A DNA stretch of 40,212 nucleotides from Methanotrichaceae archaeon (GTDB taxonomy: Archaea > Halobacteriota > Methanosarcinia > Methanotrichales > Methanotrichaceae), in assembly GCA_016927055.1 (NCBI GenBank), contig JAFGNK010000171.1, positions 1 to 40,212 of the forward strand. Reading direction: 5' to 3'. The position numbers and the translations under genes were made by a program. How positions within the stretch are numbered: the first letter of the stretch is position 1; every line of letters starts with the position of its first letter. Shown in pieces: positions 28,941-32,009 of this stretch. The notes below the pieces were generated by a model. That model was given only the letters and a program-made list of their open reading frames with translations, had not been told where the DNA came from and searched no databases.

Positions 28941-29313
28941 TCAAACCTCTTTTTTCCCATTTGATCGCTCGCGGTTGAGTATGGCCTCGATTTCTGAGCG
29001 GATCTCTGGCGCGAACTTCTTGGAGGTCTTCCACACAATCTCATCGTCAATCCCAAAATAACCATGGATAAGCCGATCTCTCATTCCGGCCATATCCTTC
29101 CAGGGTACCTGAGGATTCCGTTGCCTGACGGCGGTAGGCACTTTCTTGACAGCCTCTCCTACGATCTCAAGCGCGCAGATCACGGAATAGCGTGTCTTTT
29201 CATCAGCCAGAAAATCCTCAAGGTCCATTCCCTCCACGAAGTTTTCTGCCTTCTCCAGATTATATATTCACGATATCCTGCAGAAAGTCGATGTACCTTC
29301 GCCCGGGCTTCAC
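28941..29313 (-). pseudogene. HepT-like (DUF86) toxin gene with frameshift near 29260-29271
   Basis: GTG start at 29313 gives VKPGRRYIDFLQDIVNI*; +1 frame continues IYNLEKAENFVEGMDLEDFLADEKTRYSV...RDRLIHGYFG (RX4HXY intact). Confidence 0.75.
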
Positions 29314-29654
29314 AATGCTACCTTCTCTCGAAGAATACGCTCTCCTATCTCGCCTTTTAAGGCGCGAATTGATACGAGATCAACTTTGATACCGGTGATC
29401 TCGCGAAGCTTCCGCTCAAGGGAGATGAACTTGGGAAGGGTGGGCACTTCCTCGAATTCCACTAGAATATCAAGATCGCTATGCTTGTGCTGCTCGCCCC
29501 GGACGTAGGATCCGAAGAGCCAAAGGGTACTGACGCGATATTCCTTACGCAAGTCCGCCAAGTTATTGCGAAGCAACTGCTTTAGATCCTCTAGAGCAGG
29601 CTTTGGCTTATATTTCAATGGCTTTGAGACGGCTTGAGACTTCTTGCTTTGCAT
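29310..29654 (-). CDS. MntA-like minimal nucleotidyltransferase antitoxin
   Basis: GSYVRGEQHKHSDLDIL (GSX10DXD); TGA overlaps HepT GTG. Confidence 0.9.
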   Translation of the reverse strand: MQSKKSQAVSKPLKYKPKPALEDLKQLLRNNLADLRKEYRVSTLWLFGSYVRGEQHKHSDLDILVEFEEVPTLPKFISLERKLREITGIKVDLVSIRALKGEIGERILREKVAL

Positions 29655-29857
29655 CGAATACTATCCGGGTTTTAAGGGATAAATACATACGGATTCTTTT
29701 CACGATGGGTGAGATTTGACAGTTGACCTAACAAATCCACACATGCAGGATATTGGTGTTGGTCTTCTTAAGAAGATCTTGTAGCAGTCGGAGATTTTGC
29801 AGTGACTTGAATAAGGTGAGGCACCTCTACTTAGGGGTAAAGCACCAATTTGCTAGC

Positions 29858-31030
29858 TCAATTGGATTCTTGATCCTTTTTGGGATACTCATCTACGATT
29901 ACATTAGTCTTTATGGGCTCTGCAAAATAGCCTAATTCGTTTTTTAGAAAGTTAAGATCATCTTGGTCTTTTTCCGTCCAATTATTTTTGAAATAATAAA
30001 TTGCATCCATTGAATAGCCCTTTCCTTTTTCATATATTTCTGTTGCTATTCCAACTACTGTTTGATTTTCAGGATATAAACCTCTAATAACAAAGCAACG
30101 AGCACCCAACTCAGCTATTCTATATTTGCGATCAAAGTCTGGAGAACAAGTTAAAAAGACATAACTCACACCAGAAGGAGAAAGTACGCATCTTGATCTT
30201 ATCTTACTTTTTTGTGTTAAGAATTCAAAAAACGCCTTGCTTAAGATCCTTCTATTAAACCTATTTTCTTTTGCCATTGTTCGCATGGATCTTTCAACAT
30301 CTGTTAAGGACGAACTAAATTCTAAATTATTTTCATAAAAATCGTTGCAAAATATTTCGATGATATTATCCTATACATAACTGATCCGATCTTCTTCCTT
30401 ATTAGTAATAAATTCTGGTTTCTCCGTAACCTTTGACCACAATCCGTCGCTAACTAGGAAGCAATCAAAATTTATTGGAAGCATTCTATTGTTATAAATG
30501 TATAATGCAAGCAAATCTTCTTCATATCCCAGAAACATAGTCTGTATGCCGGCTATCGATAAGAATTCCTTATCATTTAAATACTTAATAAAATCCGTTA
30601 TTGTATCAAGCATGTTTATTATAATATTTAGTGAATATTCATCAAAAACATGAACAAAGCCCTTTCCAAGTTCCCCAAAATAAATTGGAACTTCTCTTTT
30701 TCCACCAAGAGCTACTGCAATACGATGTATTTTGCGACGATCGCTTTGCGGAAATGAGAGACTCTTTCGTCCTTCCTTTGTGATTACATGTGTCGCTCTC
30801 TTGATCCATTTTTCAGCTCCATAAATTTGCCCACAAGATTCTTCGATTGCTTTTTTTTTTTGCCATCGACTCCAATCAACCGAAATATCGCCACTATTTG
30901 TTAATTCTATCTCTTTAACAGATAAGATAATAATGTCAGGATCGCATACTATTAGCACGTCACACAGTTCTTTACCGTTCTTGCCTTTTGGATTAGATAG
31001 CTCCACATAGATAAAAATGAATTCCTGCAT
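29858..31030 (-). pseudogene. Single ~390-codon ORF interrupted by one in-frame TAG at 30371-30373; putative nuclease-like hypothetical protein
   Basis: ORF tracks 30371..31030 and 29858..30286 are in the same frame, separated by 28 sense codons (DNIIEIFCNDFYENNLEFSSSLTDVERS) after the TAG. Confidence 0.75.
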
Positions 31031-31058
31031 ATTTTATAAACTAGTTCTTCAGACTTGT

Positions 31059-32009
31059 TCATGTTCTCAAGACATTGTTATCTCTTTTACACAGACTATT
31101 TAAATCCATCTTTCTGAACACGTACTCCCCTTCCACCGTCACCTTCTCCGCCATCCCCCCAAACCGTGCCCCTAAGATCAGCTCCCCGATCTCCTCCTTC
31201 ATCACCCTGGATATGCCGATGATGGACGTGGTGGGCCGTGCATTGACATCCACCGCCCAGGGCCGCTCCCCCAGCACGAAGTCGATTCCTGCATATCCGC
31301 GCAGGCCCAGGGCCGCTGCCGCCTTTCTTGCCTCAGCCCAGATCTCATCGGCGCGAGGCGTATTATAGGGAACCTGGCTTCCCTGATAGCTCATGCCTTC
31401 GCCGGAGAAGTCGATGAGCTGGCGGTTGATGGTCAGCGGCAAGAAAAAGCCCTCCCGGCTTACCATGAAGCTGGCGGAGAGGTGCAGCCCCTCATGGTAG
31501 CGGGTGACGATCTCCTCCGGGCCCGCTTTGGTCAAGGAGGTGATTCGAACACCCTCCGAGCCGCAGCCCGTGCGCGGCTTTACCACGTAGCGGTGGCAGC
31601 CTTTCTCAACAGGATCGGGCCTGTCCACGATCTCAGCCACGGGGACGCCTGCCAGCGCCAGAGCCCGGGTGCAGAGCAGCTTGTCAGCGGCCAGGCGCGC
31701 CGCAGCTGGGCTGCAGCCCAGGTTCACCGTATGCCTCTCCAGGATCTCCAGTAGGTGGGGCTGCATGCCGTCTGGGGCAATTAAGAGCCCGGCGTCTGCA
31801 TCGCTGTCCAGGACGCTTTCAAAATCCTCTTCACTCTTCATGAGAATGGGTCGGCCTGCTGCAATGGTGAGCCCGAATGTGGGGTAGAGCACCTCATGCC
31901 CGCACCTCGCAAAGCTCTTCGCCAGGGTGGCCAGCATGGCCCGCCCCTCCAGCTCGCACGTCCCGCCCAGGCCAAGAGCGGAGGCGTATTCGGCAATAAG
32001 AATCTTCAT
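31059..32009 (-). CDS. ATP-grasp ligase, possibly tyramine-L-glutamate ligase MfnD
   Basis: ATP-grasp features RYVVKPRTGCGSEGVRI, GYAGIDFVLGERPWAVDVNARPTTSI; N-terminus LIAEYASALGLGG. Confidence 0.8.
   Translation of the reverse strand: MKILIAEYASALGLGGTCELEGRAMLATLAKSFARCGHEVLYPTFGLTIAAGRPILMKSEEDFESVLDSDADAGLLIAPDGMQPHLLEILERHTVNLGCSPAAARLAADKLLCTRALALAGVPVAEIVDRPDPVEKGCHRYVVKPRTGCGSEGVRITSLTKAGPEEIVTRYHEGLHLSASFMVSREGFFLPLTINRQLIDFSGEGMSYQGSQVPYNTPRADEIWAEARKAAAALGLRGYAGIDFVLGERPWAVDVNARPTTSIIGISRVMKEEIGELILGARFGGMAEKVTVEGEYVFRKMDLNSLCKRDNNVLRT

Follow-up and report, generated by a model that had tools for sequence, protein, structure and literature searches.

The minus strand of the window (the whole 40,212-nt stretch of Methanotrichaceae DNA analysed here) contains, between positions 29858 and 31062, what is very probably (about 0.88 by our estimate) a pseudogene: a decayed, horizontally acquired accessory gene with two lesions, located at a variable site. 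The ancestral protein, of ~400 aa and island- or plasmid-borne, is recognized by its full-length relatives and by an N-terminus that matches a relative encoded in the draft genome of the uncultured archaeon LFW-280_4 (G150, CABMII010000072.1), which belongs to the same class. As compared with intact homologues, the gene of the window has TAG in place of the TGG of a conserved tryptophan and has lost one nucleotide after codon 22.

The first of these changes had drawn attention to the locus in an earlier note on this DNA. Inspection of the ORFs revealed one in-frame stop only between positions 31030 and 29858 of the minus strand, the TAG at 30371-30373, and the coordinates given in that note were right: the ORFs 30371-31030 and 29858-30286 (both on the minus strand) lie in a common frame, with 28 sense codons between the TAG and the ATG at 30286. 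Its proposal that the two ORFs derive from one ancestral protein was borne out by the relatives, which align at full length on both sides of the TAG, and this indicates that the in-frame arrangement is not due to chance. In the alignment with the relatives, the amber codon, located ~55% along the gene, falls on the tryptophan of SYxWDxLIE, a conserved motif. At this site the eight relatives that cover it and align well all have TGG, and only a very distant one (L005) differs, which indicates that the TAG of the window arose by a single-base change from the ancestral codon. Homologues with a sense codon at this position, which the earlier note had proposed to look for, therefore exist, and a nonsense mutation, its default reading, is supported by them.

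The second lesion became visible at the N-terminus. The plasmid-borne relatives, like the N-terminal half of the LFW-280_4 protein, have ~22 residues (ending in SFLSLWSYRNPLGKNSKELCD) ahead of the part that aligns with the frame described earlier. In the window, a matching N-terminus (MNKSEELVYKICRNSFLSMWSY, versus MNKSEQYVSTICKKSFLSLWSYRNP in LFW-280_4) is encoded from an ATG at 31062-31060, in a different frame from the rest of the gene, which ends at its native stop TGA at 29858-29860. After this N-terminus the relatives go on with Y-x-N-P-x-GK, and it is there that the frame of the window is lost, through a 1-nt deletion at about 30991-30992 (lesion at 30991-30994, minus strand): the relatives read TAT-NNN-AAT, e.g. 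TATCGCAAT with TAT-CGC-AAT in LFW-280_4, and the window reads TAT-CT-AAT. As a result, translation from the ATG at 31062 terminates after 36 codons. The start previously assigned to M31030 is consequently mistaken, since this ATG lies out of frame inside the gene and the native start is the ATG at 31062; residues 1-11 of the ORF reported earlier (MQEFIFIYVEL) are an out-of-frame translation. No slippery heptamer was evident by inspection at the frameshift site. The gene also contains a run of 12 A, with an extra in-frame Lys codon (WQKKKAI versus WxK-xAI) that is not inactivating.

Relatives of the protein were found by tblastn in 142 plasmid records; in 107 of these, a single location accounts for 80% or more of the query. 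The closest known counterparts are plasmid proteins of ~400-490 aa annotated as 'hypothetical protein' or 'SEC-C metal-binding domain-containing protein', such as WP_240939628.1 (Diaphorobacter), WP_015205596.1 (Crinalium) and WP_020324153.1 (Citrobacter). The family (L006-L012) is common on plasmids of Klebsiella, Citrobacter and Providencia, and some members carry a C-terminal SEC-C. These proteins cover 90-97% of the query with 29-40% similarity and share with it the motifs GKELCDxLxV...IIIxSxK, YGAExW, WDxLIE and GIATE, whereas the copy of the window is broken by the frameshift and the amber codon and is devoid of the SEC-C motif found at the C-terminus of the enterobacterial members. In LFW-280_4 both halves of the protein were matched with 51-58% identity. 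Like the window, this relative has the N-terminus MNKSE...SFLSLWSYxNP; unlike the window, it is intact at both lesion sites, with TGG where the window has the amber codon, and its two halves lie on two contig ends. In a genome of the same genus (G007), a relative in a syntenic setting is truncated by the end of its contig, and its final 50 codons are present. No intact copy was seen in the same lineage, the former being split and the latter truncated by contig ends, and this counts against the pseudogene reading. Over the 50 codons shared by G007 and the window there are 20 differences, distributed as 5/7/8 over the three codon positions with no third-position excess, a pattern that would fit relaxed selection, although 20 differences are a small sample. 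No matches were obtained in the scan of genome contigs with the single protein, in viral contigs searched with the alignments of the C-half and the N-half, in the phage search or, at this locus, in Rfam. The only PADLOC match was to the SEC-C tail carried by one of the plasmid-borne relatives. Pattern scans were precluded by the diversity of alignments A1 and A2.

The surroundings of the gene also point to a foreign origin. An insert of low GC content (32-41%), spanning approximately 29698-31101, lies between conserved flanks, as delimited by composition, by blastn against genus relatives and by the junctions; the GC content is 32-35% within the gene, versus 50-65% upstream and 50-58% further downstream. 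Upstream, the homology to same-genus genomes ends at ~31100, close to the 3' end of a host ATP-grasp gene (PF02655; 31059-32009, minus strand, assigned by profile match and junction comparison). On the other side, the homology to a related species (G001) ends at 29697, beyond an intact gene for a small MNT-like nucleotidyltransferase (PF18765/PF01909; 29310-29654, minus strand, assigned by profile match and genus comparison). The segment that spans this gene (29186-29697) has 92% DNA identity with G001, far more than its surroundings. Between the same flanks, G001 carries a different cargo of 674 bp with a 197-aa ORF, and in other genus relatives the ATP-grasp gene is followed by unrelated sequence. 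Among these relatives the flanks are thus shared, whereas the cargo is different or missing. The 197-aa ORF (L040, 1273-1866, minus strand), situated between the ATP-grasp and MNT-like genes, had no significant Pfam match. The C-terminus of the ATP-grasp protein in the window runs about a dozen residues beyond the FRK-x-DL near which its relatives end, and reaches into the insert; at 31059-31103 (minus strand) the insertion lengthens this protein and creates an ATGA in which its stop codon overlaps the native ATG of the pseudogene. On the plus strand, positions 29711-29795 encode a C-terminal remnant of a HicA toxin, which reads DLTVDLTNPHMQDIGVGLLKKIL up to a stop; comparison with relatives, among which intact HicA/HicB-like pairs are present, showed that it has in-frame stops and lacks the N-terminal half. 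In comparisons with genus relatives this segment appears at first as a dispersed 83-bp repeat, and is actually the conserved coding end of HicA. Together, the HicA fragment, the variable cargo and the flanks indicate that the locus is a variable accessory site with at least two decayed genes, and the position between the ATP-grasp and MNT-like genes is possibly an insertion hot spot.

The main alternative is that the actual gene is intact and that both lesions are sequencing or assembly errors, to which we give a small probability. Either lesion might be an artefact of assembly. The assembly is a draft in 212 contigs with 93.7% completeness, a single-base deletion and a substitution are typical error types, and the gene contains the A-run mentioned above. 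However, neither lesion lies within this run, and the flanking genes, which encode ATP-grasp, UbiA, GPI, ThiC, the ammonium transporter and STT3, each have an uninterrupted frame across most or all of the respective profile. Moreover, base errors cannot explain a neighbouring HicA piece devoid of its N-terminal half.

Far less probable is that the TAG is read through, or decoded as pyrrolysine, to give one protein of ~390 aa. In its favour are the presence of a single stop, a frame that is open on either side and good conservation beyond the stop; in addition, according to PMC7918605, many bacterial genes with in-frame stops are not pseudogenes. Nevertheless, a search for pyl genes, which the earlier note had suggested, was negative for PylS: the N-terminal domain model (TIGR03912) had no match in the 93.7%-complete genome and the C-terminal model (TIGR02367) gave only sub-cut-off matches. 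Such matches occur likewise in 13 of the 14 control genomes and are consistent with other class II synthetases. MtmB, the classic pyrrolysine protein, was also absent from the genome, and the window has no tRNA genes. Thus, apart from a TAG in frame, the gene does not resemble the pyrrolysine-containing methylamine methyltransferases: relatives carry Trp at the site, neither Lys nor pyrrolysine, and the TAG itself is not conserved, as programmed readthrough would require. The earlier observation that TAG serves as an ordinary stop elsewhere was confirmed, as it closes 5 of the 29 long ORFs of the window, including the complete genes for ThiC (profile positions 3-419 of 420) and P-II (1-102 of 102). 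Finally, the frameshift further upstream disrupts the gene regardless of how the TAG is decoded. Stop-codon recoding, which the note had left formally open, is consequently not supported, and a regulated combination of frameshifting and amber readthrough by which the full-length protein is still expressed is hardly credible.

It is just as improbable that 30371-31030 and 29858-30286 are two separate functional genes. Both halves are open frames with an ATG, but the relatives are a single protein across the site, a start at M30286 would omit the conserved DNIIEIFCND... encoded between the TAG and this codon, and the upstream piece lacks the native N-terminus.

The PD-(D/E)XK nuclease core suggested earlier for the N-terminal half is no more than a weak lead. 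A weak local match to NERD (PF08378) extends across this half, with the window protein at 14.2 bits, below the gathering cut-off of 22.1, and individual members below or near threshold (E-values 0.0065-0.065 per member). The candidate catalytic motif consists of a D followed by SVK in the window and its closest relatives and by SDK in most others; unlike in the NERD/PD-(D/E)XK superfamily, this subgroup has Ser in place of the E of the ExK motif, and EVK is kept only in the distant relative L005. No match was found for the protein in PDB or for the intact family among curated families, a DpnII family search of the own genome was negative, and the single-sequence AlphaFold2 model had a pLDDT of 33.6, too low for fold searches. 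The weak resemblance to NERD/PD-(D/E)XK and the plasmid distribution tentatively suggest that the ancestral protein might have been a nuclease-like protein with an accessory role on mobile elements.

On the pseudogene reading, an accessory gene would have integrated at the 3' end of the ATP-grasp gene, would then have lost its function and would now be drifting. A ribosome starting at the ATG at 31062 would yield a 36-residue peptide only, and an internal start would give at most an N-terminally incomplete fragment terminating at the TAG. Just two lesions in ~1.2 kb indicate that the decay is young, and this is an ordinary young pseudogene. The source is shown to be archaeal by the AglB/STT3, cobamide and cupin-type GPI genes, and may be a Methanothrix-like methanogen. 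The locus is eliminated as a candidate for stop-codon recoding. The site exemplifies the arrival and decay of accessory genes at a variable chromosomal position, and the intact plasmid-borne family might deserve study by itself.
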